From: Candidatus Lokiarchaeota archaeon
GTDB taxonomy: Archaea > Asgardarchaeota > Thorarchaeia > Thorarchaeales > Thorarchaeaceae
DNA: 56,227 bases
Assembly: GCA_014730275.1 (NCBI GenBank)
Contig: WJIL01000130.1
Coordinates: 1-56,227 of the forward strand
Reading direction: 5' to 3'
Part shown: piece by piece, positions 19,905-53,784 of the stretch
How positions within the stretch are numbered: the first letter of the stretch is position 1
How the letters are laid out: every line of letters begins with the position of its first letter
Program-made: the position numbers and the translations under genes
The notes under the pieces: generated by a model
The model's input: the letters and a program-made list of their open reading frames with translations, nothing else
Databases searched by the model: none
Told to the model about the DNA's origin: nothing

Positions 19905-21617
19905 TTGGTGAAGCAGATGGGTCGCTCTAGCGGTGTAACGATAACGGTCAAGGTTCCCATCAGATGGGGAGTCATGACTAAAAGGCAGAAGAATCGCCTA
20001 TCTCGCATCACCAGTAGAGATACCCGTGTTATCAAGGCCTATCTTGGTATCATAGAGCGATACGAAGAGAAGCTCTTGGTTGGCAAACGGAAGACGCGGA
20101 TTGATGCCGGTGAGATCGACAAACTAACCCTGCGGACAAAGAATAGGCCATCGGTTCCACATGACTTCAAGAAACGGTTCCCGAACATTTCTACCAATGA
20201 ACTGCAGGAATGCCGGGAAACAGCTATTGGGATGTGGAAGGTCTATCTTGAGCGAGGGGAGAGCAAACCCCTGAAAGCTGAGGGGTACAGTCCGTGCAAG
20301 CTTCCCCGGCATATCTTCAAACAGCGCTTTGAGTTTGTATATACTCCTGAGAATGAAATCAAGCACTGGCTGGACTTGCGGGACTCGCTGGATTCTGTAC
20401 GGGAGGGGAGACGCCGGCATGACAGGCTGGTGATTCCGCTCAGTCCCAACTCCTATCATCTTAATCGTATAGATGAGGGGGACTTGAAATCCGTGCAGAT
20501 TGTGAAAGACGGCAATCGGAAGTGGTGGGTGCTGTTCAAGGTCAGGTTGCATCCCGAGCCAGTTGATATGTCAGAGAATCCGCCTGCAGTCATCGGTATC
20601 GATCTTGGCATCAAGAAAGCTGTCTGCTCGGCTGTGCTTACTCCAGATGGTCTCAAGCAGGTTAGGTACTGGACACAGCATGAGAAAGCCGAGGAAATCG
20701 AGAGATATGATGATATGGTCGCCAGTCTCCAGCGTAAGATGGAGAAGCTACGTGCCGATGGGGACTCTGTAGATGGTGTCCTTGGTCGACTGGATGAGAT
20801 TCGAACCAAGCGTAATGACATCAGCAAGGACTACGACCGGAAGTTGGTTCGGGTGTTAACAGACCATATTCTAGAGCTTGCTACATCGTATGACATCCAT
20901 GTGGCGATTGGCCGACTCAAGGGCATTCGAAACAGGGCTAGGCGCGGAAATGGGACTTCCCGTGCGTTCCGCAAGATGATCAATAGGTGGTCGTTTGCAC
21001 GGTTAACCAAAGCCCTGAAGCACAAGCTCAGTATGGAAGGCTTTCCGCCGGTGCGTGTTCGTGCAGTATCAGAAGCGTGGACGAGCATCACCTGTCATAA
21101 GTGTGGCACTACCGGTCTTCGGCCCAAGCAGAGCTTCTTTCTCTGTGACACCTGTGGATATCGCGACAACGCAGACAAGAACGCAGCGATCAACATCGCC
21201 AAGCGTTTGATTACGCTCATTCCTTCACTTCGGGATGAGGCAGGACTAGGGATGTGGCTCTCGGATTCCGAGGGCGCCCCAAAGACCCGGAGGAGCACAC
21301 GCTCTTATGGGAAGTCCTCACGCCCCCAGGGAACGCCAGTCCCGTCTGACGGGGCGTCCGTGGCTGACCGCTATGAACAGCTGACTCTCGAGTCGGTTGG
21401 GAGCGGTACCGACCCCGCCATGGCAAAAACTGTGGAACAACCGCCTGCCGCTACTGAGGCTCACAAGGCAGCTGGCACTCGTGGCAATAACGTGCAGCGG
21501 ACTGAGGCTACGTTCTGGAAGAGGAACAATGTTCCTGGGACACCAGACAAAGCTCGTGAACAAATAGCGGGTGAGATACCGCTATTCCCCGGTGACGGCA
21601 GTCACGAGAAGGGCTGA
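19905..21617 (+). CDS. tnpB: TnpB-like RNA-guided nuclease (IS200/IS605-group) with altered RuvC-II site
   Basis: Protein of 570 residues. RuvC-I is IGIDLG with Asp233. The zinc finger has Cys397, Cys400, Cys414 and Cys417. RuvC-III is RDNADKNAAINIA with Asp424. In the RuvC-II strand, where TnpB proteins usually carry Glu (ED-L-K-G-I-R), the sequence reads AIGRLKGIR, with Gly336. A Glu at 390 (VSEAWTS) just before the zinc finger might substitute. The last 135 residues are low-complexity and may only be the translation of the overlapping guide RNA. No tnpA is nearby, so it is a tnpB-only element. TTG and GTG starts are both possible. Confidence 0.9.
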   Translation: MVKQMGRSSGVTITVKVPIRWGVMTKRQKNRLSRITSRDTRVIKAYLGIIERYEEKLLVGKRKTRIDAGEIDKLTLRTKNRPSVPHDFKKRFPNISTNELQECRETAIGMWKVYLERGESKPLKAEGYSPCKLPRHIFKQRFEFVYTPENEIKHWLDLRDSLDSVREGRRRHDRLVIPLSPNSYHLNRIDEGDLKSVQIVKDGNRKWWVLFKVRLHPEPVDMSENPPAVIGIDLGIKKAVCSAVLTPDGLKQVRYWTQHEKAEEIERYDDMVASLQRKMEKLRADGDSVDGVLGRLDEIRTKRNDISKDYDRKLVRVLTDHILELATSYDIHVAIGRLKGIRNRARRGNGTSRAFRKMINRWSFARLTKALKHKLSMEGFPPVRVRAVSEAWTSITCHKCGTTGLRPKQSFFLCDTCGYRDNADKNAAINIAKRLITLIPSLRDEAGLGMWLSDSEGAPKTRRSTRSYGKSSRPQGTPVPSDGASVADRYEQLTLESVGSGTDPAMAKTVEQPPAATEAHKAAGTRGNNVQRTEATFWKRNNVPGTPDKAREQIAGEIPLFPGDGSHEKG

Positions 21618-36231: not shown

Positions 36232-36885
36232 ATGTTCGAAATGCCGAAAACGGTAGAAGCTCCTGAAGAACTACACCCAATGATTGAAGCCCTTGAATCT
36301 CAGTACGAGACGATTCTCAACAACCAAATGGAATTCCGCCCGGAAGAAGGTAGAGTGCACCTAGCAGGAAAGAATATCATGCTCATCGCCCTTGAGACCA
36401 TTGCAGTCACTTTGAAAGAGGAACTTGTCGAAGTCCTTGGCGAGAATGGGATGACGCTGCTGATGTATCGGGTGGGCAAAGCCTTTGGACGTACTGCGGC
36501 GCAACAGATCCTACCCATCATAGAAACAGGCAAACTTGCTGAGAAGCTTGTAGCAGGACCGATATATGCAGCATACTCCGGCTTTGTACGGGTGCGACTA
36601 TTGCCTGGCTGCAATATCGTGGACAATGACGATTACTTTCTATTTTACGAGCATCCAAACAATTTCGAGTCGGATTTGTGGACCCAAGCTGGTAAGACTG
36701 CAAATGAGCCCATATGCAGCTTCAATGCCGGATACTCAGCTGGGTGGTGTTCTGAAGCAGTAGGTCTGGACCTTGATGCAACAGAAATATTGTGTGAGGC
36801 CGCCGGTGATTCATCTTGCCGCTTCATTATGTATCCTGCATCACGAACTATGGAATACATGGATAAAGCTGACGAGTACAAGTAA
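36232..36885 (+). CDS. V4R (4-vinyl reductase) domain protein
   Basis: 217 residues. The V4R fold of small-ligand (hydrocarbon or heme-like) binding is indicated by SFNAGYSAGWCSEAVG and EILCEAAGDSSCRFIMYP, the C-terminal Cys/Gly block of this family. The N-terminal half is helical and has an acidic lead. The domain is found in sensory and small-GTPase related proteins in archaea. First in the signalling cluster. Confidence 0.85.
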   Translation: MFEMPKTVEAPEELHPMIEALESQYETILNNQMEFRPEEGRVHLAGKNIMLIALETIAVTLKEELVEVLGENGMTLLMYRVGKAFGRTAAQQILPIIETGKLAEKLVAGPIYAAYSGFVRVRLLPGCNIVDNDDYFLFYEHPNNFESDLWTQAGKTANEPICSFNAGYSAGWCSEAVGLDLDATEILCEAAGDSSCRFIMYPASRTMEYMDKADEYK

Positions 36886-37124
36886 TCCGGAGTAAAATCT
36901 CTCTGGAGGGGGTCTTTCTTTTTTCTGCGTTTCTGGTTGATGTATTGGCTATGTGATTATCTATCCTCTTTTGAATCATTTACGATTCGCCAGTCTTCCT
37001 ATTTTTTCATAGCAAGTGTTCTATTATTTCATGTGTTTGTTTCGCAATGCAAAAGCGCATAGCATATATGCATTGCCACAATTTGTTTTTATTATTCTAA
37101 AATTACTGCATATTACCTCAGAAT

Positions 37125-37277
37125 ATGGTGAAAAATTACCTGCTTTGGGAGGTGAAAAAGCTGACTGATTGCAAATATGCAGGAGATGAAAACGCTTCGG
37201 GCCAAATTTGGTGTGAAAAAAAGAATATCTATGTAAGCGGCGAAGAAAGCGATCACTGTTCGGACTATGAAACATAA
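37125..37277 (+). CDS. Cys-bearing mini-protein, 50 aa (copy 1)
   Basis: ATG 37125 to TAA 37277. The core DCKYAGDENASGQIWCEKKN is shared with the mini-protein at 38052, through NIYVSGE and the last Cys. It has three Cys (first after KLTD, second WCEKK, third DHCSDY). A ribosome binding site GGGAGGTG is inside the 5' end, so the true start may be GTG 37152. Similarity across a divergent copy shows it is a real gene. Confidence 0.65.
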   Translation: MVKNYLLWEVKKLTDCKYAGDENASGQIWCEKKNIYVSGEESDHCSDYET

Positions 37278-37578
37278 TCGGTGATCGAATAACCAAAAAT
37301 CACTCTGATGTTCACAAAAAAAACGCAAGGAAGAGTGTATGAAGGCTGGTTCTAATCCGGGCAGTCTTCATCCTCAATATTGACTCCCTTTCGAGAATAT
37401 CTATGAAGAACAAGACACCATCAATACCTATTATTTATTAATCTTACTTTATTGTATTTACATTCAATTTTTTCAGATATACCAAGAACATATATATGGA
37501 AAATACTGGTGGTATGAGCTAGGTTGTACATCCAGTAGTTATGCTTGATGTACCGCGAACGGCTAGGAGATAAGAAAT
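37278..37578. other. Promoter region of the signalling operon
   Basis: About 300 bases without a gene, very AT-rich. ACATATATATGGAAAATA (about 37490) has the shape of a TATA box. Nothing else is recognised. Confidence 0.4.
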
Positions 37579-38046
37579 ATGGATTACAAAGGTTTACTGG
37601 ATAAATCAAATACTGTTATGGTGGTCATGGCTGAAGCTATGGTCAACATGGGCCTAGATATCGATCTGATTTGGACACAGATGGCTAACGCATACCAAGG
37701 CGATGCGAAGGAAATGCTGAGCCACATGGGTGTGAACATCGAGGGAGACGATGTGACATCTGTTGCAGAATCATTTGCAGAACAGATCAAGGCCACAGGT
37801 GCAGTACAGCGATGCAATATTGTCAGTGCGAGTGACGATGAGGTTGTCGTGGATATTGGTGAGTGCATTTATGCACCAGCTACCGCGAAACTCAGAGAAC
37901 ATCATCCAGATGATATTCCCCCCTGCCCCTTCATGGCGATTTTGTATGCGGGAGTGAATGAGCATACTGGAAAACACTGCCACGTTACAGGTGTGGAACA
38001 CAAGCCTGAACACAATTCAAACATCTTCACACTAGAAGTAGAGTGA
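37579..38046 (+). CDS. Uncharacterised 155-aa protein of the signalling operon
   Basis: Helical N-terminal half (LLDKSNTVMVVMAEAMVNMG) and a C-terminal block with VVVDIGECIYAPATAKLREHH, PPCPFMAILYAG and GKHCHVTGVEHKPEH. The Cys/His content suggests a metal or small-ligand site, and the end has weak likeness to V4R-type ligand domains. First gene of a dense operon. Confidence 0.6.
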   Translation: MDYKGLLDKSNTVMVVMAEAMVNMGLDIDLIWTQMANAYQGDAKEMLSHMGVNIEGDDVTSVAESFAEQIKATGAVQRCNIVSASDDEVVVDIGECIYAPATAKLREHHPDDIPPCPFMAILYAGVNEHTGKHCHVTGVEHKPEHNSNIFTLEVE

Positions 38047-38051
38047 TAATC

Positions 38052-38174
38052 ATGTCTTCATCTGACTGCATACATGCAGGAGAAGAAAACGCAGCGGGCC
38101 AAATCTGGTGCGAGAAGAAGAATATCTACGTATCTGGAGAACAAGCAGAAACTTGCGAGTATTATGAGAACTAG
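38052..38174 (+). CDS. Cys-bearing mini-protein, 40 aa (copy 2)
   Basis: ATG 38052 to TAG 38174, five bases after the upstream stop. The sequence MSSSDCIHAGEENAAGQIWC continues EKKNIYVSGEQAETC. Cys are at 6, 20 and 35. Near-identical core to the mini-protein at 37125 with mostly synonymous or conservative changes, so selection on protein is likely. Possibly a small zinc or redox protein. Confidence 0.72.
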   Translation: MSSSDCIHAGEENAAGQIWCEKKNIYVSGEQAETCEYYEN

Positions 38175-38189
38175 GAGAACGTGAACAGA

Positions 38190-38552
38190 ATGAGTGCTAA
38201 GATTAAGAAACTAGAAAGTACCTTGAAGAAGTTGGAGAACGATAGCGAAGTCGACGGCTGCGCTCTTGTCAGTGACAAGGGTCAGTTGATGGCTGCAGCC
38301 CTGCATAAGGGTGTTGATGAAAAAGGCATTTCTGCCATGGCAGCCGCGCTGGTTTCGATTGGAGGCAGAGTCGGTAAGGCTCTTGATTCAGGAACTCCAA
38401 ACAACATCGTAATTGAGGGTGAGGAGAAAACCGTTATTGTCAGGAATTTCCCTGATGCAGCCCTGATTGCGACAGCGCCAAAGGACTCTAAGATTGGTCT
38501 GATTGACTTCGAAATGGACAAGGCATGTGAGTCGATCGAGACGATTCTCTAG
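38190..38552 (+). CDS. Roadblock/LC7 domain protein
   Basis: 120 residues from ATG 38190 (GTG 38181 also possible). The Roadblock fold pattern is VDGCALVSDKGQLMAAAL, GISAMAAALVSIGGRV and DAALIATAPKDSKIGLI. Roadblock proteins bind small GTPases as activators or partners. A GTPase gene is next on the strand. Confidence 0.85.
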   Translation: MSAKIKKLESTLKKLENDSEVDGCALVSDKGQLMAAALHKGVDEKGISAMAAALVSIGGRVGKALDSGTPNNIVIEGEEKTVIVRNFPDAALIATAPKDSKIGLIDFEMDKACESIETIL

Positions 38553-38616
38553 GCTTCGGCGGGATAACGACAAGAACATACAACAATAAAAGACAATACC
38601 CAGGAGTCTAGAAATC

Positions 38617-39288
38617 TTGGCGACTAAAGACCTCAAAGCCTATGACTACAAAGTGTATGTCACAGGCCCGTTTCAAGCAGGAAAAACCACAATGATCCAC
38701 ACCCTGGACCCCAACGCGATGTCGGTGGAACGGGAGTTGAAGGAGGGATATCGTGGTGAAGAGAGTACAACAACCACGGGCTTCGATTTGGGACGAGTCG
38801 TGTGGGTTAGGAAGGAACTAGCTCACATGGGGCTTATTGTCCCGAAGAAGGAATACCAGGAGGAGCGCGCAGAATATGCTAATTGGACAGCAAAGGAAAT
38901 CGAGCTCCGAGGTGTGCCCGGTCAACTGCATTTCAAGTTTGTGCGAGATACGATGCGTGCAAACACAGATGGTGTGCTATTGATTATAGATTCATCTGAT
39001 CCTGCTATGATAGGAGATGCCTCTGCAATCCTGGCTGAAACACAGACTTCCTTTGGAAACACTCCGATGGTCACAATCGCCAACAAACAAGACCGCGCCG
39101 ATGCAGTTGCACCGAACGAAGTCGCGTCTTGGCTTGGTTTGGAAAAGGCAGTAGGTTGTTCTGCCTTAAACCGAGAATCCTCCAAGACCGCACTAATCCT
39201 CCTTCTGAAAAAGGTCGAAGAGAATGTTAATGCAGCAGCGGCCGAAAGTGGAGCCGGCGCTGTCTCTCAATCATCACGAGGCACATGA
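38617..39288 (+). CDS. Arf/MglA-like small GTPase
   Basis: 223 residues from TTG 38617. G1 GPFQAGKTT (17-25), G3 GVPGQ (99-103), G4 NKQD (156-159), G5 CSAL (181-184). A long insert of about 45 residues between G1 and G3 (EERAEYANWTAKE) is unusual, and the C-terminal tail is Ala-rich with no prenylation signal. Flanked by Roadblock genes on both sides, as in MglA-MglB-type pairs. Confidence 0.88.
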   Translation: MATKDLKAYDYKVYVTGPFQAGKTTMIHTLDPNAMSVERELKEGYRGEESTTTTGFDLGRVVWVRKELAHMGLIVPKKEYQEERAEYANWTAKEIELRGVPGQLHFKFVRDTMRANTDGVLLIIDSSDPAMIGDASAILAETQTSFGNTPMVTIANKQDRADAVAPNEVASWLGLEKAVGCSALNRESSKTALILLLKKVEENVNAAAAESGAGAVSQSSRGT

Positions 39289-39298
39289 GGTATGAATA

Positions 39299-40117
39299 AT
39301 GGATTTTAATCAGAATTACCATACAGATGAAAGCCAATCCGATACGGAAGAGCAGCCTGAGGAGTCTTTCACAAGCAATTCGGAATACAGTGAGGGCGCA
39401 GTACCTGAAGACAACACACGAGACCAGGTTCCAGACAACACACAACCCACACCTGAGTCCACAGAAGTCACAGCCCCTCCTGCACACAAGTCTGCTGACT
39501 CACCAGAGTCAGGTTCAAATGGGACACGTGAGCCCCCGTCTGGCATGGAAACAGGGGAAGAAGCCAATACGCAGTCTATGACTGGAGCTGCTCATCCCCA
39601 CGGTACAGAACCTGAAACAACCCAACCACAAGGGGTTGATGATGTTCCTCCGGCAGAGGTTGACGAGGAAGAAGAGGAAGAGATTCCCCCGGTAAGACAA
39701 ATCAGAGACTTGCTTACAGATTTCGAAATACGAGTACCCGTGTGGGGCATTACTGTATTCACCGTTGATGGTTACATCCTTGCTCATCGTCTTTTCTACG
39801 ATGATATGCCTCAGAATATTGAAATGGCTGTCAGCAGTATGTCTGCAGGACTTATTACCATATCTGAAGACTTCATCCGATTGGTTGATAGCAGCGCTGA
39901 TTTCAGCCAGGTATTGGTCGATGCTGAACATGAAACTGGTGATGTGAGCTTCTCTATTCTTCTGAAGCATATAGAAGAGAACGTGATGCTTACTTGCATC
40001 TTCCCAAGTGATACGAAGCTTGGACTTGTTTCTTTCGAGATTCAAACAGTTAGCAACAAGATCAAGGAAATCGTAGAAATGTGGGATGTGAAGCTTCACA
40101 GAGATACAATGACGTAG
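39299..40117 (+). CDS. Roadblock domain protein with long acidic disordered N-terminus
   Basis: 272 residues. Residues 1-130 are rich in Glu, Pro, Thr and Ser without structure (TPESTEVTAPPAHK), ending in an acidic DEEEEEEIPP tract. From about 140 a Roadblock domain (VPVWGITVFTVDGYILAHRL, IEMAVSSMSAGLITIS) follows. The long tail may tether the GTPase complex. Confidence 0.75.
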   Translation: MDFNQNYHTDESQSDTEEQPEESFTSNSEYSEGAVPEDNTRDQVPDNTQPTPESTEVTAPPAHKSADSPESGSNGTREPPSGMETGEEANTQSMTGAAHPHGTEPETTQPQGVDDVPPAEVDEEEEEEIPPVRQIRDLLTDFEIRVPVWGITVFTVDGYILAHRLFYDDMPQNIEMAVSSMSAGLITISEDFIRLVDSSADFSQVLVDAEHETGDVSFSILLKHIEENVMLTCIFPSDTKLGLVSFEIQTVSNKIKEIVEMWDVKLHRDTMT

Positions 40118-40133
40118 GAGAGATGATTATTAG

Positions 40134-40553
40134 ATGAAAAAAGGCAAGCATGAGAAACTAGAGGAAATAGTTACAGATGTAGTAGAAGACGGTCATGGAA
40201 TCCTTAGTTGCGTAGTCACCAATGAGAGAGGGCTCATTGTGACAGGTCAAACCACAGATGGCTCATCCAATGATACCCTAGCAGCTATGGTTTCCCTTCT
40301 GTCTGACAGCGCGACAAGAGTTAGTGAAAACCTTGGATACGGCCATCCCAGAACAGCAAGCGTCAAAAATTATGGAATCAATATAGCTCTCCATGAATTC
40401 AAAGTAAGAGATCGATGGTTTCGAATCGGGGCAGTCCATGAAGCCAGAGGCCTGCTCGATCGAGGCTTTTTCGATAAGCTGTTTAATCGGGGTTCGGTTG
40501 AAGATAATCTAACTGATGCGGCCGCAAAAATTCGCTCAGTTCTGGAAACCTAA
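40134..40553 (+). CDS. Roadblock/LC7 domain protein
   Basis: 139 residues. Pattern: HGILSCVVTNERGLIVTGQT, DTLAAMVSLLSDSATRVSEN, and a final GAVHEARGLLDRGF. Third Roadblock gene of the operon, 16 bases after the preceding stop. Confidence 0.78.
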   Translation: MKKGKHEKLEEIVTDVVEDGHGILSCVVTNERGLIVTGQTTDGSSNDTLAAMVSLLSDSATRVSENLGYGHPRTASVKNYGINIALHEFKVRDRWFRIGAVHEARGLLDRGFFDKLFNRGSVEDNLTDAAAKIRSVLET

Positions 40554-40628
40554 TGAGTGATGAAAGGAATCACATTGAACAAGAACGAATCAAGTAGGGA
40601 TTTCGTGTGATTCGGGAGAGAATCAAGT

Positions 40629-41789
40629 ATGTGCTGCAAGGACAGAAGAGACCAGCCAAAAGACAGGGATATACCCATTCTACAGTCGCGTCTGGAAGGC
40701 ACATACTGCGCCTCTCATAATAGCATAGCATCTCAATCGGAATATGATAATAAGACATTTTTACTTCATGTTATTGAATCGTTAGCGCACCCATTTTATG
40801 TTGTAGACCCACAAGATTACACTATCAAACTTGCTAATACTGCTGCCCAATTAGGTCAGCTTGATGCAAATCCGACATGTTACAGAATGATACATAATCG
40901 GAACACACCTTGTTCCAGTGAGCATCCATGCCCCCTTGATTTAGTGGAACAAACTAAAGATTTTGTAGTTGTTGAGCATACACACATTCATTCTGACGGA
41001 GAGACACGAATAGTTGAAATCCATGCGCATCCGATTCTTGATTCTGACGGAAATGTTTCACTGGTAATCGAACATTCACTTGATGTAACGGAACAGCGAC
41101 AAACCGAAGAAAAACTCCAAATGGAGTCACGAAGGGCACAACTCTACTTGGATAAACTCGGTCATGATATGGCCAACATGTTACAGGTCATTTTGGGGGA
41201 TGTTCAAATTCTTCAACATTGCATATCGTCAGATTCTGAAATGATGGCGGAATCTCTCAATCGCATTCAGGAAGCGCTAGGACGTTGTTTTGAATTAGTA
41301 TCCCAAGCTCAATTTACGCAGGACTTGATTTCAGCTCCACTCGTGAATCGATCTCTCGAAAGAGCATTGCTTGATTGTATTGAGACAGTAGCTGAGCGGC
41401 ATGATGATTTCCTTGTCCAAATGTCAATGGATATGGAAGACAGCAAGATAACCGCTGACAAGTTCTTAGACACCCTTCTTGATAATGTACTCGACAATGC
41501 TATACGGCATAATCCCTCTGACAATAAGCGTGTGTGGATACGAGCTATCCAAAAGAAGCGGGGATACAAGATTACTATCGAAGACAACGGACCAGGAATT
41601 GATGACGATTTCAAGTCGGTTGTGTTCAATCCTTTTCAATGGGACGGTCATTTTGGATTGTATTCTTCTGCGGATATTGTAGAAAAATACAACGGACGCA
41701 TTAGGGTATCTGACCGTGTTCCGGGAAATCCCGGCAGCGGAACGAAATTCACAATCTGGCTACCAACTTCGGAGGTAATATGTAGATGA
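40629..41789 (+). CDS. PAS-domain histidine kinase
   Basis: 386 residues, GGAGAGA ribosome binding site. The PAS domain (about 45-155) has SLAHPFYVVDPQDYTIKLAN and a Cys pair (TPCSSEHPCPL) also seen in the PAS domain of the gene at 43041. The phosphoacceptor helix has His179 (LGHDMANMLQ). The ATP site has DNVLDNAIRHN (N box) and EDNGPGID. No membrane part, so a cytosolic sensor. The stop overlaps the next ATG (ATGA). Confidence 0.87.
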   Translation: MCCKDRRDQPKDRDIPILQSRLEGTYCASHNSIASQSEYDNKTFLLHVIESLAHPFYVVDPQDYTIKLANTAAQLGQLDANPTCYRMIHNRNTPCSSEHPCPLDLVEQTKDFVVVEHTHIHSDGETRIVEIHAHPILDSDGNVSLVIEHSLDVTEQRQTEEKLQMESRRAQLYLDKLGHDMANMLQVILGDVQILQHCISSDSEMMAESLNRIQEALGRCFELVSQAQFTQDLISAPLVNRSLERALLDCIETVAERHDDFLVQMSMDMEDSKITADKFLDTLLDNVLDNAIRHNPSDNKRVWIRAIQKKRGYKITIEDNGPGIDDDFKSVVFNPFQWDGHFGLYSSADIVEKYNGRIRVSDRVPGNPGSGTKFTIWLPTSEVICR

Positions 41790-42343
41790 TAAGAAACTCC
41801 AAAGACACTACTCGAGTTGTACGAAAGCTTATGGATATTGCAGCTCAATCAATAGGACTTCCTGATACAGCTGGAATTATCCTGACTACTTTATACACCC
41901 ATAGAGCCACATCCGAAAAAGGATTGTCTATCGGGGAAATGAGTGACGATACTGGCTTATCAAGAAGTACCGTGTCTCAGATTTGCTCTCAGCTTGGTAC
42001 TGCAGGCATTTTGACACGACGGGCAGATACAGATCATACTGGGCGGGGAAGAAGGAAAATGCTCTACTATCCTCGAGTGAGTCTACATCATTTTCTTTCC
42101 CTTAGTATTAGAAGATACGTACAAGATATCAACAGAATAAGAATGAAGATTGAGGCTGTATTGAGTAGTGAGGACCAGATTGAAAGTATCGAAAACAGCA
42201 TACTGAAACTTGCCAAAGTTGAGATTGAGATGTTCCTGTCCGATTTCTCCCAGTTCTCAGATGGGGGAGTAAATTTCAACCGCCCGGTACAGGACCACAC
42301 TTCTCCCGATACCCAAGAAGGAACTGCAATGGATATGTCGTGA
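41786..42343 (+). CDS. GbsR/MarR-type winged-helix regulator
   Basis: 185 residues. The wHTH core is GLSIGEMSDDTGLSRSTVSQ and a wing GRGRRKMLYY, followed by a helical tail. Overlaps the kinase gene upstream by four bases and is followed at once by the kinase gene at 42345, so the three are likely one operon unit. Similar to the regulator at 44446. Confidence 0.8.
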   Translation: MIRNSKDTTRVVRKLMDIAAQSIGLPDTAGIILTTLYTHRATSEKGLSIGEMSDDTGLSRSTVSQICSQLGTAGILTRRADTDHTGRGRRKMLYYPRVSLHHFLSLSIRRYVQDINRIRMKIEAVLSSEDQIESIENSILKLAKVEIEMFLSDFSQFSDGGVNFNRPVQDHTSPDTQEGTAMDMS

Positions 42344-42344
42344 A

Positions 42345-43013
42345 ATGAGTTTCGCGGACAACTGCAAGGACGCAGACGCTCTCATTATCCAAAAACAAGA
42401 ATTCAGTGAATTCATGCAAAAGTTGTCTCATGATGTAGGCAACCAATTGCAGAATATTCGTGGGTATGCAGAGCTACTTGTCCTTGAGTGTGAATCCAAT
42501 TACCTTGAAAGGATTATGCATATTGCACATGTTACTCAGAAGATGCTGCGCCGCTCTGTTGAGTTTACTGACGTTGGGCCAATCGTGCATGAACCCACAT
42601 TAGTCAACTTAAATGATACAGTACGAGAAGCAGCCGAGTATGTTGTTCCGAAAGAAATCCGTTTTGAATGTAGCAATTTACCCTCTTGTTACGCAGAACG
42701 GGCAAAGGTTTTCCTTATCTTCACTAATCTGTTGAGAAATGCTTTGGATTCCAACTCTCAAGGAATCGAGGTGCGAGTCCAGGAGAAACAATCAACTTAC
42801 TCACTACTATTCATGAATGACGGCCGCCCACCTGATGATGCACTGCGTGAACAAATCACCACGGGAAAAATCAGTATGAAACATACTGAGGGGCTGGAGA
42901 TCCTGATTGTCAAAAAGTTAGTCAAGGCACATGGTTGGTCGTTCTCCCTTGAACCTGCCTCCAACACATGCTATAGAATTGGGATTCCGAAAGAGGACTG
43001 TATGCGCGTTTAG
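42345..43013 (+). CDS. Short histidine kinase, 222 aa
   Basis: Begins with a His phosphoacceptor helix (KLSHDVGNQLQNIRGYAEL) and ends in an ATPase domain: N box LLRNALDSNSQ, then MNDGRPPDDAL and HTEGLEILIVKKLVKAHGW, a variant G-box region. There is no sensor domain, so it probably receives input from partner proteins. Confidence 0.8.
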   Translation: MSFADNCKDADALIIQKQEFSEFMQKLSHDVGNQLQNIRGYAELLVLECESNYLERIMHIAHVTQKMLRRSVEFTDVGPIVHEPTLVNLNDTVREAAEYVVPKEIRFECSNLPSCYAERAKVFLIFTNLLRNALDSNSQGIEVRVQEKQSTYSLLFMNDGRPPDDALREQITTGKISMKHTEGLEILIVKKLVKAHGWSFSLEPASNTCYRIGIPKEDCMRV

Positions 43014-43040: not shown

Positions 43041-44426
43041 CTATTCTGATTGATTTGCACCAGCACCTTGTTCTAGGGTGATTATATACGCTGGTTCATC
43101 GAGATATGTTGAAGGCGCCAGGGTCAATCGAACCTCTGTGTATTGCCCGTTTTTCTTTCTAAGCTTGCACTTCAAACTCGTCGGGTTTTCAATCTCTTCC
43201 ATTGTATTGACTATCAATTCTAGGTGCTTGTCATCAACCATTTTGTGTAACGGAACGTTTGTGAACTCGTGAACTTTATAGCCAAGCGCTTTTGCCAGCA
43301 GTGGATTACAGTATATCACCTGTTCATGTTGAACTACGAACGTCCCAGCAGCTACTTTCTCAGCGGTCATCTGATACAATTCCAACAGCCTTCGAATATC
43401 CCGCTCCAATTGCTTTCTGTCTGTGATATCCAAACAGTATTCGATTATTTTGTCTACATTCCCTTCTTCATCAAAAATGGGATGAGCATGCACCTCAAGA
43501 TGTCTTGTAGGACCTGATATTTGGTGATGGATATGTTCCACTGTAACTGGTTCCTTCTCTTCCTTTACTTTCTGTAATGGACAAGGATGTACATCAGCTG
43601 CACATGGAGAGCTTCTCCCATGGGTTAAGGCATAGCATTTTTTGTTTTGTGTCAAATCGCCGAATCGAGAAGCACTATTCGCAAGCTTGACTGAGTAATC
43701 GTTGGCGTCAATAACATAGAATGGGTGTTGGACCGACTCCATAACGCGATGCAGAAAATTTCGTTGTCTTTCAACTTCTTGTTCTGCCAATGTTCTCTTC
43801 GTGATGTCTTCAAGAATCATGGTAGCACCAGTCGTGCCATCGTAGAATGTTGTAGGCACCAACTTGACTCGAAAATGTCTTATTCCATCCTCTCGCTCTA
43901 TGGAGGTTTTGAAGTCGCATTCCTTTCCTCTTGCCGCATCAGACATTAAGGACAGTATCCAATCTTCAGATAATCCTGGCAGACTCAGATTGTCCAATTT
44001 TTTCCCAAGTACGGCGTCAGGCTCTATTTCCAATGATGTTGCACATGAGTTATTGGTTCTAATGACTTTGAGGTCTGAATCAAAAGTGAGAATACCGTCT
44101 TCGGCAATGTTCAACATTGCATCCAACGGAACGCGCTGCGATAGGGTATACAGTTTGGCTGGCCCCACCTTCCGCATTTCGACCTGCCCCGCCATCTGCA
44201 TTACATCGAGATATCTAGCTGTAGTATTTCTATTTACATCGATATCGCTCGCGATGTCTGTTATTGTAAGACCTTTTGGATTCTTTCTAAGATCTCCCAG
44301 TATCCTTTTTCGTATGGCTCCATGGTCATCCAATATAGAACATCCCTCTACGTAAACCGAAATCTTATCCCAGTATATAATAGGATTCAGTTCATCGTCT
44401 GTCATTTGCAGTCTGGTTGTTATCAA
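43041..44426 (-). CDS. HTH-PAS-PAS-PAS regulator without kinase domain
   Basis: 461 residues. An N-terminal HTH (LTITDIASDIDVNRNTTARY) is followed by three PAS repeats at about 105-215, 220-335 and 340-455. The second carries the PCAADVHPCPL Cys motif shared with the kinase at 40629. No histidine kinase core follows, so it may act directly as a ligand- or redox-controlled regulator. Confidence 0.8.
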   Translation of the reverse strand: MITTRLQMTDDELNPIIYWDKISVYVEGCSILDDHGAIRKRILGDLRKNPKGLTITDIASDIDVNRNTTARYLDVMQMAGQVEMRKVGPAKLYTLSQRVPLDAMLNIAEDGILTFDSDLKVIRTNNSCATSLEIEPDAVLGKKLDNLSLPGLSEDWILSLMSDAARGKECDFKTSIEREDGIRHFRVKLVPTTFYDGTTGATMILEDITKRTLAEQEVERQRNFLHRVMESVQHPFYVIDANDYSVKLANSASRFGDLTQNKKCYALTHGRSSPCAADVHPCPLQKVKEEKEPVTVEHIHHQISGPTRHLEVHAHPIFDEEGNVDKIIEYCLDITDRKQLERDIRRLLELYQMTAEKVAAGTFVVQHEQVIYCNPLLAKALGYKVHEFTNVPLHKMVDDKHLELIVNTMEEIENPTSLKCKLRKKNGQYTEVRLTLAPSTYLDEPAYIITLEQGAGANQSE

Positions 44427-44445: not shown

Positions 44446-44964
44446 TTAGGACTTTAGTTCGTCCATCGCCTTGGCTGATAGAATACGTCGGCTGTACTCT
44501 CTAAGTTGTTTAGAGTTTCGCTTTATCTCCTCGGAGAGAGCATCCATAGCTTCTACTGCGTTCTTCTTATCAGGTTCGATAGTAAGCTTCAATGCTGCGA
44601 TCTCATTCTGAAGTCCTTCAAGCTCGATACCTAGCCTGCGGATACCGAACATTATCAACCCTGACAAACCTTCACTTAGCGCATAGAGAGTAGGTCTTCT
44701 ACCTCTCCCCTCTTGGCTTGTATCCACTCTTCCCTCGATAAATGCAAGCGACTTGAGTTGAGAAATGGCAGCACTAATGCTACCCCTCGAATATCCAGTA
44801 ATGGTGGCAAGAGTCTCTGATTTGAGAGCCTCTCCTGACCAGTAGTATTCAGCTAACAAGACCGCAAGCACATCTGTTGCGGCTTCTGACAAACCAATCC
44901 ATTGGAGATGTTTCTTACAAATACGGAAAAATTTCGTGTATACGAGAGAATCACGACGGGACAT
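44446..44964 (-). CDS. GbsR-type winged-helix regulator, 172 aa
   Basis: wHTH with LATITGYSRGSISAAISQLK and wing RGRRPTLYALSEG, then a coiled coil (ELEGLQNEIAALKLTIEPDKKN). Similar in make-up to the regulator at 41786. It is upstream of the HTH-PAS gene on the same strand and divergent from the large hybrid kinase. Confidence 0.8.
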   Translation of the reverse strand: MSRRDSLVYTKFFRICKKHLQWIGLSEAATDVLAVLLAEYYWSGEALKSETLATITGYSRGSISAAISQLKSLAFIEGRVDTSQEGRGRRPTLYALSEGLSGLIMFGIRRLGIELEGLQNEIAALKLTIEPDKKNAVEAMDALSEEIKRNSKQLREYSRRILSAKAMDELKS

Positions 44965-45211: not shown

Positions 45212-48200
45212 ATGGATATCCAGATACTGGTAGTCGATGATGATGAAGATCTGATTTTCCTGGCACAGCAGTTTCTTGGCATGCAAGATGAAGATTTTCA
45301 TCTAGTCCCGGCTACCACAGGGCAGGAGGCTCTCCGTCTGTTGGAGAGCAATGAAATCGATGCTGTCATCTGTGACTATTACCTTGGTCCTGGTCAATTG
45401 AATGGATTAGAAATATTGGAATGGCTCAGAGATCAGGATTCTGATATCCCATTTATCATATTTACTGGCCGTAGTCGGGAAGATATTGCCATTCAAGCGC
45501 TCAATCTTGGAGCAGATTACTATTTCGAAAAAACAGATGATTTGGGTGGATTGTTCTCCGAGATTGCACATCATGTGAAAAGCGTAGTGCGTCATAGACG
45601 CATGAAAGAAGTACTACATGAAAGCGAGGAGCGATATCGAAGCCTAGTACAATCTATAGACGACATTCTTCTTGTGCTCGATGAAAACAACTTCATTGTT
45701 CAGTATCATCCATCTGAGAATGACGTTTTTGTGACGAATCCTGCAAGTATACGTGGCACCCACATCATGAATATTCTCCCCTCTACTATGGCAGAATCAT
45801 GCACTCGACTAGCTGAAGCAGTACGAGATACGGGAGAGCGACGGAGTACGGACTACGGGATTGTTATCAATGGTGAACAGATGTGGTTCACAGCCAATCT
45901 TGATCTTCATGAGAATGGGAAATATGTGGTTGTAACGCTCATAGATACTACAAAACGAAAAGAAGTGGAAGAGAATCTGAGGCAGGCTGAGGCTGAATGG
46001 CGGCATACCTTTGATGCGATTCCCGACATGGTTTCAGTCATCGATACCAATTTTCGAATAATGAAAGCAAATGAGTCGACCTATGAGAGCCTTGGTCTAT
46101 CTCGAGAAGAAATCATAGGTCAGAAGTGCTACGAAGTATTCCATGATTCTAGTGCACCAATTCCTGATTGCCCTCATACTGAAACAGCTGAAACCGGTGA
46201 AGATGCAGTCGCAGAGACATCCGATTTCCGAAATGGCTGCCCTTTTCTCGTGACCACATCCCCTCTTTTTGATCACGATGGGAATCAGATTGGCGTAGTC
46301 CATATCGCCAAAGACATCTCGGAACGGGTGCAGACCCGTGAGGCACTTCAGGCGAGTGAAGCCAAGTTCCGCGCCATATTTGAACGTGCGGGCATTGGTA
46401 TGTCTATGGTTACATTGGATGGGCATTTCTTGGAAGCCAACAAGGCACTGCAGGATATTCTGGGCTATAGCCGAGAGGAACTTCTTTCAATGCAGACAGC
46501 AGATGTAACCCATCCTGATGATATTGCCAAGGATGAAGCTGCCCTTTCATCTATGCTAAAAGGGGACTTGGACCGCTATCAGATTGAAAAAAGGTACATA
46601 CGAAAAGATGGGACAATTCTGTGGGGACTACTTACAGTATCTCTTCTTCGGGGGGAGAATGGTTCTCCTATCGGTACGGTTGGTATGCTCGAAAACATCA
46701 CTCAGCGAAAACAAGCCGAGAAGCTCCTTCGTGAAGAGAAAGAACGGGCACAAATGTACTTGGATCAAGCTGGAACCGTTATTCTTGTTACCGATTTGAA
46801 CTTGGACATAACTCTTCTGAACAAAAAGGGGTCCGAAGTTCTGGGGTATAATGAAGAAGATGTTCTTGGAAAAAACTGGATTGAAATGTTCATACCTGAT
46901 GGGGAGAAGGAATCCATTCGAGGGTACATGTCCGGGATTCTTGCTGGCACTTTGGAACCCACGAAGGCAGAAGAAGGCCCCGTTTTAACCTCCAACGGCG
47001 AAATCCGCTGGATTGAATGGTCTGATGCTGTGCTGAAGGATGAAAATGGTAAGCCCACTGGAATTCTCAGCGCGGGGCCTGATATAACTGAGCGAAAAAA
47101 GGCAAAAGAAGAAGCCCGGGAAAGCTACGAGAAGTTTCGTCAGCTGTTCGAACAAGCTCCAATTGGCACTGCTCAGGTGGACCTCGAAGGCAATATATTC
47201 GAGGTCAATCCTGCTCTTAGTGACATGCTGGGTTATTCTCGAAAAGAGCTTGTTTCGATGCAGGTCCAAGACGTAACTCATCCAGATGACTGGGGCACGG
47301 AGGCTGAGCTTAACCAAGAAATGCTAAGTGGTGAGAGGAACTCCTATAGTGCTCGCAAGAGGTTTATTGATCGCAATGGAAATGTGATATGGGGGGATCT
47401 ACATGTGTCAATGAACAGGAATGAAGATGGGGCCCCTCAGTCGGTCGTTGGAATGGTTTCCGATGTGACTGATGAGGTCTTGGCAAAACGCGAGTTGACC
47501 GAATCCGAAGAACAGTTCCGGATGATGGCTGAGAACATCAGTGATGGCCTTATGATTCTCCAGGAGGACTCCCTTGTTTATGCCAATGATCGGGTGACAG
47601 AGATTCTTGGCTTCACGCAGGAGGAACTTAGCAACATGAGCTATAGCGAGCTTGTTGCTGATGAGGAAAAAGACAGGCTTCTGAAGTCAATTCAGAAATG
47701 TGAGGCTGAGAAAAGGGGAACTCAGACTATGAGCCTCTGGATTAAGAGGAAAAACGGATCTCGACGGTACGTGAATGGGCGCTATACGTGTTTTGAGAAA
47801 GATGATGGTCATCTGATGAAATACATCCTTTTGACTGATAGAACAGATGAGAAACTTGCCCAGGAAAAACTAAAGAGGAAAGAGAAGAGATTTCGAGAGT
47901 TCTATGAGAAAGCTCCATTTGGATGTCAGATGCTGGATGAGCAAGGATGCTTACTTGATGTGAATCAGAAATGGCTTGAGACAACGGGATATTCTCGACA
48001 AGAGGTTTTGGGCGTGTATTTTGGGGAGTTTCTGACCGAAGAGGGGAAGCAGAGATTTTCACGTGTCTTCGCTGAGTTCAAGGAGCGAGGATTCGTTGAG
48101 GATATTAAATATAGTCTGGTCAAAAGAGATGGTTCGGTGTTGAAAGCAGTCTTCAACGGGCAAGTCATCTACGATGAGGCTGGCAATTTTGTCAGAACGC

Positions 48201-48883
48201 AGTGCATTTTCAGGGATATAACAAATGTGAGCAAGACAAATGCTATTCGAGAAAGACAACAAGAGGAGCTCGAGGACATTGCTCACATGATGGTGCATAA
48301 TCTAGCTAGCAAAATGCGGAATATCAGCAACTTGGTTGATTTACTGAAGACGGAACATAGTGACAGCACTATTAGGAAACTTGATAGCATAGCCTACCAT
48401 TCAGCTGAACTCCTTTGTGAGGCTGCTGAGCTTGCTGAAGAGCCTGCAGTTGCCACTCGCAAGGAATGGGTAGATTTGCGCGAATTAGCTCGAACAGCTG
48501 CTGCAACGACAATTCCAAACGAAATCGAGACAGATATTGACGATCTACCAAGGGTTCTAGCCAATCGGAAAAAATCTGCTACAATTTTTGAGAACATTTT
48601 CAGAAATGCCGTGGAACATGGCCAGCCAAACAGGATTGAAGTCAGGAAAGAGAAATCGAATCAAGGCACCTCTATTATTATTTCAAATGATGGTGTCCCA
48701 ATTCCTCAACGCATCAGAGATAAGATATTCAGAAGAGGTTTTACCACTAAAGATGAAGGGGCTGGAATGGGCCTTGCGGTTGTGGAGAAGGTTGTTAAGG
48801 CGCATGGTTGGAGAATCTATTTGGAGCCCTCTGATACCACGAGCTTCAGAATTGCACTGGGCCATCTAGGGCCTCTTGCCTGA
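45212..48883 (+). CDS. Receiver-PAS-histidine kinase hybrid, 1223 aa
   Basis: Receiver domain 1-120: acidic pocket Asp9-Asp11 (VVDDDED), phosphoacceptor Asp55 (ICDYYLG), Thr85 and Lys107. About seven PAS repeats follow (DDILLVLDENN, DMVSVIDTNFR, IGMSMVTLDGHFLEANKAL, TVILVTDLNLD, IGTAQVDLEGNIFEVNPAL, GLMILQEDSLVYAND, FGCQMLDEQGCLLDVNQ). A His helix (IAHMMVHNLASKMRN) and ATPase domain (ENIFRNAVEHGQ, KDEGAGMGLAVVEK) end the protein. No membrane segment. It would sense several cytosolic signals. Confidence 0.9.
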   Translation: MDIQILVVDDDEDLIFLAQQFLGMQDEDFHLVPATTGQEALRLLESNEIDAVICDYYLGPGQLNGLEILEWLRDQDSDIPFIIFTGRSREDIAIQALNLGADYYFEKTDDLGGLFSEIAHHVKSVVRHRRMKEVLHESEERYRSLVQSIDDILLVLDENNFIVQYHPSENDVFVTNPASIRGTHIMNILPSTMAESCTRLAEAVRDTGERRSTDYGIVINGEQMWFTANLDLHENGKYVVVTLIDTTKRKEVEENLRQAEAEWRHTFDAIPDMVSVIDTNFRIMKANESTYESLGLSREEIIGQKCYEVFHDSSAPIPDCPHTETAETGEDAVAETSDFRNGCPFLVTTSPLFDHDGNQIGVVHIAKDISERVQTREALQASEAKFRAIFERAGIGMSMVTLDGHFLEANKALQDILGYSREELLSMQTADVTHPDDIAKDEAALSSMLKGDLDRYQIEKRYIRKDGTILWGLLTVSLLRGENGSPIGTVGMLENITQRKQAEKLLREEKERAQMYLDQAGTVILVTDLNLDITLLNKKGSEVLGYNEEDVLGKNWIEMFIPDGEKESIRGYMSGILAGTLEPTKAEEGPVLTSNGEIRWIEWSDAVLKDENGKPTGILSAGPDITERKKAKEEARESYEKFRQLFEQAPIGTAQVDLEGNIFEVNPALSDMLGYSRKELVSMQVQDVTHPDDWGTEAELNQEMLSGERNSYSARKRFIDRNGNVIWGDLHVSMNRNEDGAPQSVVGMVSDVTDEVLAKRELTESEEQFRMMAENISDGLMILQEDSLVYANDRVTEILGFTQEELSNMSYSELVADEEKDRLLKSIQKCEAEKRGTQTMSLWIKRKNGSRRYVNGRYTCFEKDDGHLMKYILLTDRTDEKLAQEKLKRKEKRFREFYEKAPFGCQMLDEQGCLLDVNQKWLETTGYSRQEVLGVYFGEFLTEEGKQRFSRVFAEFKERGFVEDIKYSLVKRDGSVLKAVFNGQVIYDEAGNFVRTQCIFRDITNVSKTNAIRERQQEELEDIAHMMVHNLASKMRNISNLVDLLKTEHSDSTIRKLDSIAYHSAELLCEAAELAEEPAVATRKEWVDLRELARTAAATTIPNEIETDIDDLPRVLANRKKSATIFENIFRNAVEHGQPNRIEVRKEKSNQGTSIIISNDGVPIPQRIRDKIFRRGFTTKDEGAGMGLAVVEKVVKAHGWRIYLEPSDTTSFRIALGHLGPLA

Positions 48884-52914: not shown

Positions 52915-53784
52915 ATGATTGAAGCAGTGCTCATATTCAACAATTATGGTGACCTAGTTGCAAAAGAAATCTTGGGCGTAGCAGAACTAGGCGATTCCAT
53001 GAAGCGATTCCTGAGCGCACTTTCCGAAATAATCGGTGGGAAAAAGCATTCGTTTCGTGACCATCTCAACCTTGGCAATCGACTTGTCAGCTATATTGCT
53101 GATGAAGAACACTCACTCATTACAGTATCTCCCATACTCGCTGACGTTGCTACTTTGGAAGAAGTGCTTACGAAGATTTGGGAGCGCTGTGTCCGTGAAA
53201 TTGATGGAGTCCCAATCAATAAGGTGATGGCGAAAGCAGTAAACATCGTTTTGAGCCAAGAGATCAAAATTGCTATCTTTGGGCAGCCACGGGTTGGAAA
53301 AACTACAATCTCTCGCATGATACTCAAGAAACGCATCCCACTTAGATACGTTTCTACCATCGGTGTCAAGGTGAGACCCGTACCTGGTGGTTTGATTGGG
53401 AGTGGGACCGGCATCGTTTTGTGGGATATTGGTGGGCAGCCCAGATTTCGCAGTATGTGGCCTACCTATCTTAGAGGTTCTCAGCTTGTTCTTGTCACAA
53501 CGGATAGTACCCTTGAAAGCGTATTATGGGCTAGAAAGATGATTCCGCATGTCCGTTCTTGGACTGGTGATGCAGCTCTTTTGGGCGTTGCGAATAAACA
53601 GGATCGCCCTGTTGCGCTTACATGTGAGCGAGTTAGTAGTATCTTGGGAATAGATACGATTCCGTTAACAGCACTTGAAATGTTAGACCCTTCCGAACGG
53701 TCGCACCTAATCGACGCCATATTGGACAAGCTTGGTTCACCTCGAAATGAACCGTCTTCTAGCCCCTTGGTCTCCTCAACGTGA
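52915..53784 (+). CDS. Small GTPase of Arf type with longin-like N-terminal domain
   Basis: 289 residues. Residues 1-105 are alpha-beta with strands (EAVLIFNNYGDLVAKEIL, LVSYIADEEHSLITVSPI) as in longin or Roadblock folds. The GTPase follows: G1 GQPRVGKTT (123-131), G2 Thr148, G3 DIGGQ (171-175), G4 NKQD (227-230), G5 TAL (252-254). The DxGGQ and Arf-like pattern is clear. Fusion of longin-like and GTPase parts recalls eukaryotic signal-recognition and vesicle proteins, a trait seen in Asgard genomes. Confidence 0.85.
   Translation: MIEAVLIFNNYGDLVAKEILGVAELGDSMKRFLSALSEIIGGKKHSFRDHLNLGNRLVSYIADEEHSLITVSPILADVATLEEVLTKIWERCVREIDGVPINKVMAKAVNIVLSQEIKIAIFGQPRVGKTTISRMILKKRIPLRYVSTIGVKVRPVPGGLIGSGTGIVLWDIGGQPRFRSMWPTYLRGSQLVLVTTDSTLESVLWARKMIPHVRSWTGDAALLGVANKQDRPVALTCERVSSILGIDTIPLTALEMLDPSERSHLIDAILDKLGSPRNEPSSSPLVSST

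Follow-up and report, generated by a model that had tools for sequence, protein, structure and literature searches.

The window analysed here is the whole of contig WJIL01000130.1 (assembly GCA_014730275.1), 56,227 nucleotides long, from an archaeon deposited as Candidatus Lokiarchaeota. The host genome is 3.64 Mb and 99.5% complete, and the nearest named loci belong to metagenome-assembled genomes (MAGs) of Candidatus Thorarchaeota, in agreement with the Asgard origin given in the original prediction, which was made from the sequence alone. That prediction placed a gene cluster at positions 36232–43013, and our open reading frame (ORF) and Pfam analysis recovered all of its parts there: a V4R gene, two ORFs for small cysteine-containing proteins (mini-Cys; mc1 and mc2, recovered by reading the intergenic gaps), three Roadblock genes, a small GTPase gene and two genes for kinase-like ATPases. 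From 37579 to 43013 all genes lie on one strand, as had been described. Of the ATGA overlaps mentioned, at most two 4-bp overlaps were found, HK1/HTH at 41786–41789 and g2/mc2, the latter only if mc2 starts at an upstream GTG. A six-gene core (g2, mc2, RB1, GTPase, RB2 and RB3) runs from 37579 to 40553. The ligand-sensor V4R gene does lie next to this module, 693 bp before g2, with mc1 in the intervening space. No product appears membrane-like; all proteins of the cassette look soluble. As set out below, the observation holds up, and its extent exceeds what the prediction recognised. The cassette and its attached genes are the following:

36232..36885 (+), V4R sensor protein (XylR_N + V4R), TRAPPC3 superfamily; Pfam XylR_N 1.1e-11, V4R 2.8e-9
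37152..37277 (+), mc1, extra stand-alone mini-Cys copy; start uncertain, GTG 37152 or ATG 37125
37579..38046 (+), g2, predicted TRAPPC3/V4R/H-NOX-fold protein, 155 aa; AlphaFold2 model
38052..38174 (+), mc2, mini-Cys microprotein, 40 aa; conserved position, coding-type substitutions
38181..38552 (+), RB1, Roadblock/LC7 protein; Pfam Robl_LC7 1.3e-11
38617..39288 (+), MglA-like small GTPase with extended interswitch region; G motifs, Foldseek
39299..40117 (+), RB2, Roadblock protein; Pfam 0.13, core vs 7f8m 2.3e-5
40134..40553 (+), RB3, Roadblock protein; Robl_LC7 9.8e-5, LAMTOR5 3.1e-4
40629..41789 (+), HK1, soluble PAS histidine kinase, apparent Thorarchaeota-specific add-on; PAS_4 1e-9, HATPase_c 5e-19
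41786..42343 (+), HTH, MarR/Lrs14-like winged-helix protein, apparent Thorarchaeota-specific add-on; MarR_2 3.7e-5, Lrs14 1e-4
42345..43013 (+), HK2, short histidine-kinase-like protein without PAS; HATPase_c 2.4e-8

To map the cassette, we searched 227 genomes of the phylum with a GTPase profile and labelled the resulting loci with profiles built in this analysis. These genomes are mostly fragmented MAGs, and absences are therefore soft. The GTPase family comprises 44 loci in 33 of the 227 genomes, the window included. At least one Roadblock gene lies within 5 kb in 36 of these loci; the other eight consist of five stand-alone paralogues in Thorarchaeota and three loci near contig ends. The order g2-mc-RB1-GTPase is contiguous in 13 loci from six taxonomic families (L021, L023, L028, L033, L036, L037, L136, L139, L140, L143, L144, L146 and the window), one of which, L146 (= L057), is from a Heimdallarchaeota MAG. 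Two further loci carry variants: L138 has g2-mc-RB1-RB2-RB divergent from the GTPase gene, and L137 has g2-mc-RB1-RB2 without a GTPase gene. Together, these 15 loci cover families f1, f2, f22, f23, f24, f25 and f27. Spacing between g2 and mc is 5 to 7 bp in most loci, and the mc-RB1 gap is likewise a few bases in most, a pattern kept over seven families. Searching with g2 found it in 17 of the 227 genomes, mostly within the cassette. Conservation of gene order in other Asgard genomes had been set as a test by the original prediction, and the order does recur in other genera and families, with protein identities of 45–75%. Recurrence at such identities argues that the cassette is not a product of chance, and we rejected chance aggregation on these grounds.

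The GTPase is a single-domain protein of 223 aa. In an alignment of 17 sequences, the motifs read GPFQAGKTT (G1), TTTT (G2), G[VAS]PG[QS] (G3; GVPGQ in the window) and NKQD (G4). GPFQAGKTT and NKQD, which correspond to the P-loop GxxxxGK[ST] and to [NT]KxD, are invariant or nearly so. T52-T53 are invariant and place a Thr where the intrinsic Arg sits beside the G2 Thr, as expected for MglA Groups 2–5; a Thr that substitutes for the Arg finger of Group 1 is among the criteria published for these groups (Wuichet and Sogaard-Andersen 2014, PMC4316618). We also regard G3 as of the GTPGQ type, with G-[VAS]-P-G-Q in 16 of 17 sequences and a second residue unlike the published one. Coupling to an MglB-type Roadblock gene, defined as lying within four genes, corresponds here to the 36 of 44 loci counted within 5 kb. 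By these sequence motifs, the GTPase is a member of MglA Groups 2–5, neither Group 1 nor Arf. Its AlphaFold model (pLDDT 83) has as its top Foldseek match MglA in the MglA-MglB complex 3t1q (7.6e-9), and its VIA scores are tied between Arl2 (19.9) and MglA (19.5). The protein had been called Arf-like; the GTPase assignment holds, but the Arf label does not, since the Pfam Arf match (2e-9) covers residues 75–177 only and the G2 and G3 motifs are those of the MglA family. A true Arf was rejected, as the Asp of DxxGQ is absent and GVPGQ stands in its place.

The Roadblock proteins form three classes, each with its own consensus. RB1 is above the cut-off for PF03259 and matches solved structures (9jue, 2.4e-12; 7f8m, 2.1e-11). 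RB2 is marginal in Pfam (PF03259, E 0.13, 12.4 bits); its core matches the solved Roadblock 7f8m (2.3e-5) and, weakly, MglB (6h5b and 6izw). At 272 aa, window RB2 is longer than its full-length orthologues (146–176 aa, 53–74% identical), and its acidic, low-complexity N-terminal tail of ~125 aa (39299–39670) is not found in them. It carries a T-x-DG motif. RB3 scores 22.5 bits against PF03259, where the cut-off is 23 bits (23.1 with neighbours in frame), and conserves NERGL and FRiGa motifs; its sequence gave nothing below E 1 against solved structures. Searches of NCBIfam were uninformative for g2, the GTPase, RB2 and RB3. Many loci have four Roadblock genes, with an RB1-like copy after RB3.

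The upstream slot is occupied by one of two proteins. Window g2 has no Pfam family match. Its single-chain AlphaFold2 model (pLDDT 92.9) has TRAPPC3 6aq3 as its best Foldseek match (2.2e-4); VIA gave Z 11.1 to the same structure (148 aligned, 3.4 Å), Z 9.9 to Thorarchaeota TRAPPC3 7yh2 and about 9 to PoxR/MopR. With most of its chain aligned at Z scores of 9–11 to TRAPPC3, Bet3, PoxR and MopR, the predicted structure places g2 in the TRAPPC3/V4R/H-NOX fold superfamily. ATC_hydrolase, a family whose link to V4R and HNOB domains has been described (Galperin et al. 2018, PMC5847659), was weakly matched by 3 of 19 g2 family members (best 0.008). The V4R zinc cysteines are absent from g2 by inspection. 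None of the 19 g2 proteins matched PF04051 at E up to 10, and a genome search with PF04051 found two other genes, g2 not among them. Thus, g2 as a TRAPPC3 proper of PF04051 was rejected, the family being absent in g2 and present elsewhere in the genome. The two PF04051 genes are ~3 kb apart (G000:C132 127894–131327) and are kept in nearly all genomes of the family.

In one clade of Thorarchaeota that lacks g2, a V4R gene fills its slot before the core: orthologues of the window V4R protein (56–60% identical) immediately precede the core in L024, L026, L029, L030 and L032. The V4R protein matches the phenol sensors PoxR/MopR (4e-10). V4R has been argued to be the ancestor of Bet3 (Podar et al. 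2008, PMC2253512), and the V4R/TRAPPC3 fold is ligand-binding in nature (Tran et al. 2024, PMC10933270). The two proteins found in this position belong to one superfamily, as judged for g2 from its model.

The mini-Cys proteins matched no Pfam or PDB family; matches to HIPIP (0.47) and BssC_TutF (0.61) are not significant and serve as a lead for an Fe-S cluster only. Invariant residues are C, G, W-C, K and C, and the three invariant cysteines of mc2 are spaced C-x13-C-x14-C in the window copy. Codon differences (0.34 at positions 1 and 2, 0.58 at position 3) and a median dN/dS of 0.24 are of the coding type. In 15 loci from seven families, g2 and RB1 are separated by the mc gene, and 17 of the 21 mini-Cys matches in the 227 genomes are in or beside the cassette. 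The extra window copy, mc1, is 64% identical to mc2 (profile match 3.7e-21); L028 likewise has an extra copy upstream of g2. Other arrangements were also seen. Elsewhere in the host genome, two further stand-alone mini-Cys genes occur in tandem at G000:C70 36323–36448 and 36780–36905 (L186 7324–7449 and 7781–7906), where neither g2 nor a Roadblock gene is adjacent. In L138 (9063–10526), near the g2 cassette, a mini-Cys domain is fused to the C-terminal end of a HEAT-repeat and GNAT acetyltransferase protein. In L145 (6937–8400), g2 and mini-Cys are followed by an aquaporin (MIP) gene and there is no Roadblock-GTPase core.

Downstream of the core, the original prediction described PAS kinases that would control the GTPase. 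HK1 does contain PAS and has intact H-, N- and G-boxes in alignment; HK2 lacks PAS, retains the H-box and has a partly degenerate ATP lid; and a winged-helix gene (HTH) lies between the two. A kinase follows directly after the core in five loci, all from Thorarchaeota (L021, L027, L036, L037 and the window), which puts histidine kinases outside the conserved core. The window shares an HTH gene behind the core with L021, L025, L031 and L157. Both the kinase and the winged-helix genes appear to be additions made in Thorarchaeota to an older core, and histidine-kinase control of the GTPase, being confined to the five loci and found in no other clade, did not hold as a general property; it is at best a Thorarchaeota-specific elaboration of the switch. 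Two more regulatory genes lie beyond HK2 on the opposite strand:

43041..44426 (-), winged-helix protein with three PAS domains, regulator beside the module; Pfam
44446..44964 (-), HTHb, another winged-helix protein; orthologues before the core elsewhere

An orthologue of the former adjoins mc/g2 in L028, with a piece in L021. HTHb orthologues precede the core in L021, L025, L027, L028, L031, L033 and L157. At 45212–48883 (+), the window encodes a protein in which a receiver domain is followed by numerous PAS domains and an ATPase of the histidine-kinase type; its relatives lie beside the cassettes of L021, L028 and L033. Elsewhere in the window are a natural fusion of an Arf-like GTPase to a longin- or Roadblock-like N-terminal domain (52915–53784, +) and a TnpB-like protein with, by eye, a C-terminal zinc ribbon (19905–21617, +).

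We then considered the history of the cassette. In the GTPase tree (53 rows), branching matches taxonomic families. Within a 38-row clade (100/99), the g2-mc state is distributed among the deep branches; having V4R before the core instead is the mark of a single clade of Thorarchaeota (95/87). From the match between tree and families, we infer an ancestral g2-mc-RB1-GTPase-RB2-RB3 operon followed by many losses. Pairwise distances, compared with those of the GTPase by the mirror-tree approach and with no species-tree control, gave r values of 0.90 for RB2, 0.76 for RB1 and 0.70 for g2. The nearest relatives found outside the Asgards are euryarchaeal KaiC-GTPase fusions beside one Roadblock gene; others are bacterial GTPases, mostly with no Roadblock neighbour. 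Such fusions of a KaiC-type ATPase and an MglA-like GTPase adjoining one Roadblock gene are seen in Methanosarcinales and other archaea (L065, L068, L094 and similar loci).

On balance, we favour the view that the cassette is an ancient, mostly vertically inherited small-GTPase signalling operon of Asgard archaea that works along the following lines. RB1, RB2 and RB3, as homo- or heterodimers, would bind the MglA-like GTPase and set its GTP/GDP state, by analogy with MglB on MglA. Precedents for Roadblock regulation of a GTPase are MglB, MfpD, a GTPase-activating protein (GAP), and MfpC, a guanine nucleotide exchange factor (GEF). The g2 protein, or V4R in its slot, may dimerise, bind a ligand and dock on the Roadblock proteins, such that a small molecule gates the switch; it is given this input role because of its gene position and the ligand-binding nature of the V4R/TRAPPC3 fold. 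Mini-Cys, we would guess, binds a metal or an Fe-S cluster and partners g2, which together with it would feed in a ligand or redox signal. Since the core contains no response regulator, the GTPase or a winged-helix protein is the likely output, and in some Thorarchaeota, including the window, the soluble PAS histidine kinase and winged-helix protein probably link the switch to transcription. A stronger version has all of this in one stable complex, with a TRAPPC3-fold dimer and Roadblock heterodimers forming a ligand-gated GEF or GAP, mini-Cys essential, and the whole TRAPP-like and pre-eukaryotic. We regard that version as doubtful.

Several observations weigh against the operon as a signalling unit. 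Distribution is patchy (33 of 227 genomes), and the cassette is missing from the one other genome of the genus, which means that the system can be dispensed with. The five GTPase paralogues of Thorarchaeota stand solitary, with no Roadblock neighbours; g2 occurs without the GTPase in L141, L142 and L145; and the two cysteines of g2 are lost in two families. In addition, the mirror-tree correlations could reflect shared phylogeny alone. A rival reading has two independent neighbours, with g2, mini-Cys and a winged-helix protein acting as a metal or redox sensor and the Roadblock-GTPase genes merely adjacent. Consistent with this, g2-mc lies beside aquaporin and winged-helix genes in L145, stand-alone mc genes exist elsewhere in the genome, and Roadblock-GTPase genes lack g2 in many loci. 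However, the short gaps on either side of mc, kept over seven families, and the replacement of g2 by V4R of the same superfamily in one clade of Thorarchaeota argue otherwise, and we consider independence improbable.

The window itself resembles the conservons of Streptomyces (CvnABCD), in which kinase, Roadblock GAP, CvnC and GTPase genes share an operon, and its genes could be read in the same way: histidine kinase as input, Roadblock GAP, winged-helix protein as third partner and GTPase as output. Proteins of the same kinds are adjacent in the window, and the boxes of HK1 are intact. Nevertheless, a kinase stands directly after the core in five loci only, all from Thorarchaeota, HK1 has neither LPxR nor a membrane-like segment, HTH has no Pfam match to DUF742 at E up to 1, and G4 is an invariant NKQD rather than NxFD. 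A conservon-like scheme is thus possible, with the odds against it, and the likeness may be a convergence of parts. Membership among the conservons themselves was rejected, as three defining features fail (a kinase with C-terminal LPxR in every operon, CvnC/DUF742 and the NxFD form of G4). The kinase-controlled polarity switch of the MglA-MglB type put forward by the original prediction fares worse. MglA/MglB-like pairing stands, in that the GTPase and Roadblock families fit and the RB2 core weakly matches MglB structures; nothing points to polarity. The Arg finger of the polarity-type Group 1 is replaced by Thr, G3 reads GVPGQ and not TVPGQ, three different Roadblock genes stand in for a single MglB, and the kinases are not conserved, such that we consider this reading very unlikely. 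The multiplicity of Roadblock genes (three distinct, four in many loci) instead recalls Ragulator, where a scaffold of three to four heterodimerising Roadblock proteins would tether the GTPase to a membrane to sense nutrients. RB3 weakly matches LAMTOR5 (3e-4), and more distant Roadblock relatives weakly match MAPKK1_Int, yet weak profile matches are expected between Roadblock subfamilies. There is a single MglA-like GTPase with no C-terminal Roadblock domain, and no LAMTOR1-like protein was recognised among the neighbours, where no LAMTOR1 profile search was run. A Ragulator-like scaffold is therefore unlikely.

Asgard archaea are the closest relatives of eukaryotes. They have dozens of small GTPases, Roadblock proteins and TRAPPC3-like proteins, among which the cassette names six probable partners. 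That one operon encodes a TRAPPC3-fold protein (as predicted for g2) along with Roadblock proteins and a GTPase is relevant to the way in which these folds may have been joined before eukaryotes arose. The cassette also reveals a conserved microprotein family with no Pfam or PDB match. Structures have been solved for Thorarchaeota Rab, Roadblock and TRAPPC3 proteins (Tran et al. 2024, PMC10933270). In the Lokiarchaeon MK-D1, GTPase genes are generally not in operons with Roadblock, longin or TRAPPC3 genes (PMC10933270), making partners hard to guess; the cassette in other Asgards is an exception to this pattern. A search limited to open-licence PMC papers did not find a description of the operon, which may exist elsewhere.

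How does the cassette compare with known systems? Like eukaryotic TRAPP, it combines a TRAPPC3-type fold with Roadblock/longin-class proteins and a small GTPase; unlike TRAPP, its subunits are Roadblock rather than longin and its GTPase is MglA-like, not Rab. Membership in TRAPP was rejected given the Robl_LC7 subunits, a GTPase without the Rab/Ras DxxG, and PF04051 genes elsewhere. Ragulator-Rag likewise brings several different Roadblock proteins together with a GTPase; the cassette has one GTPase, with no Roadblock domain on it. The g2 and V4R proteins share, the former by prediction, the fold of the V4R/MetOD1/ATC-hydrolase superfamily, whose members PoxR, MopR and MsvR are ligand-binding sensors in transcription control, whereas g2 and V4R are stand-alone and tied to a GTPase operon. 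With MglA/MglB, the cassette shares Roadblock and GTPase genes side by side, Thr for the Group 1 Arg, GxPGQ and a canonical G4; it differs in that each GTPase is accompanied by three to four distinct Roadblock genes, and in having a gene for a putative TRAPPC3-fold protein, a microprotein and a long interswitch region. Archaeal MglA Group 4 has been reported to lack conserved neighbours, unlike the cassette. Actinobacterial conservons and related systems (AGPS; CvnABCD, Mfp) also have an operon with Roadblock and small GTPase genes, to which the window adds a histidine kinase and a winged-helix protein. In the cassette, the kinase is optional and soluble and the candidate sensor is of the TRAPPC3/V4R fold. 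Among systems that place kinase, Roadblock and GTPase genes in a single operon, conservons come closest.

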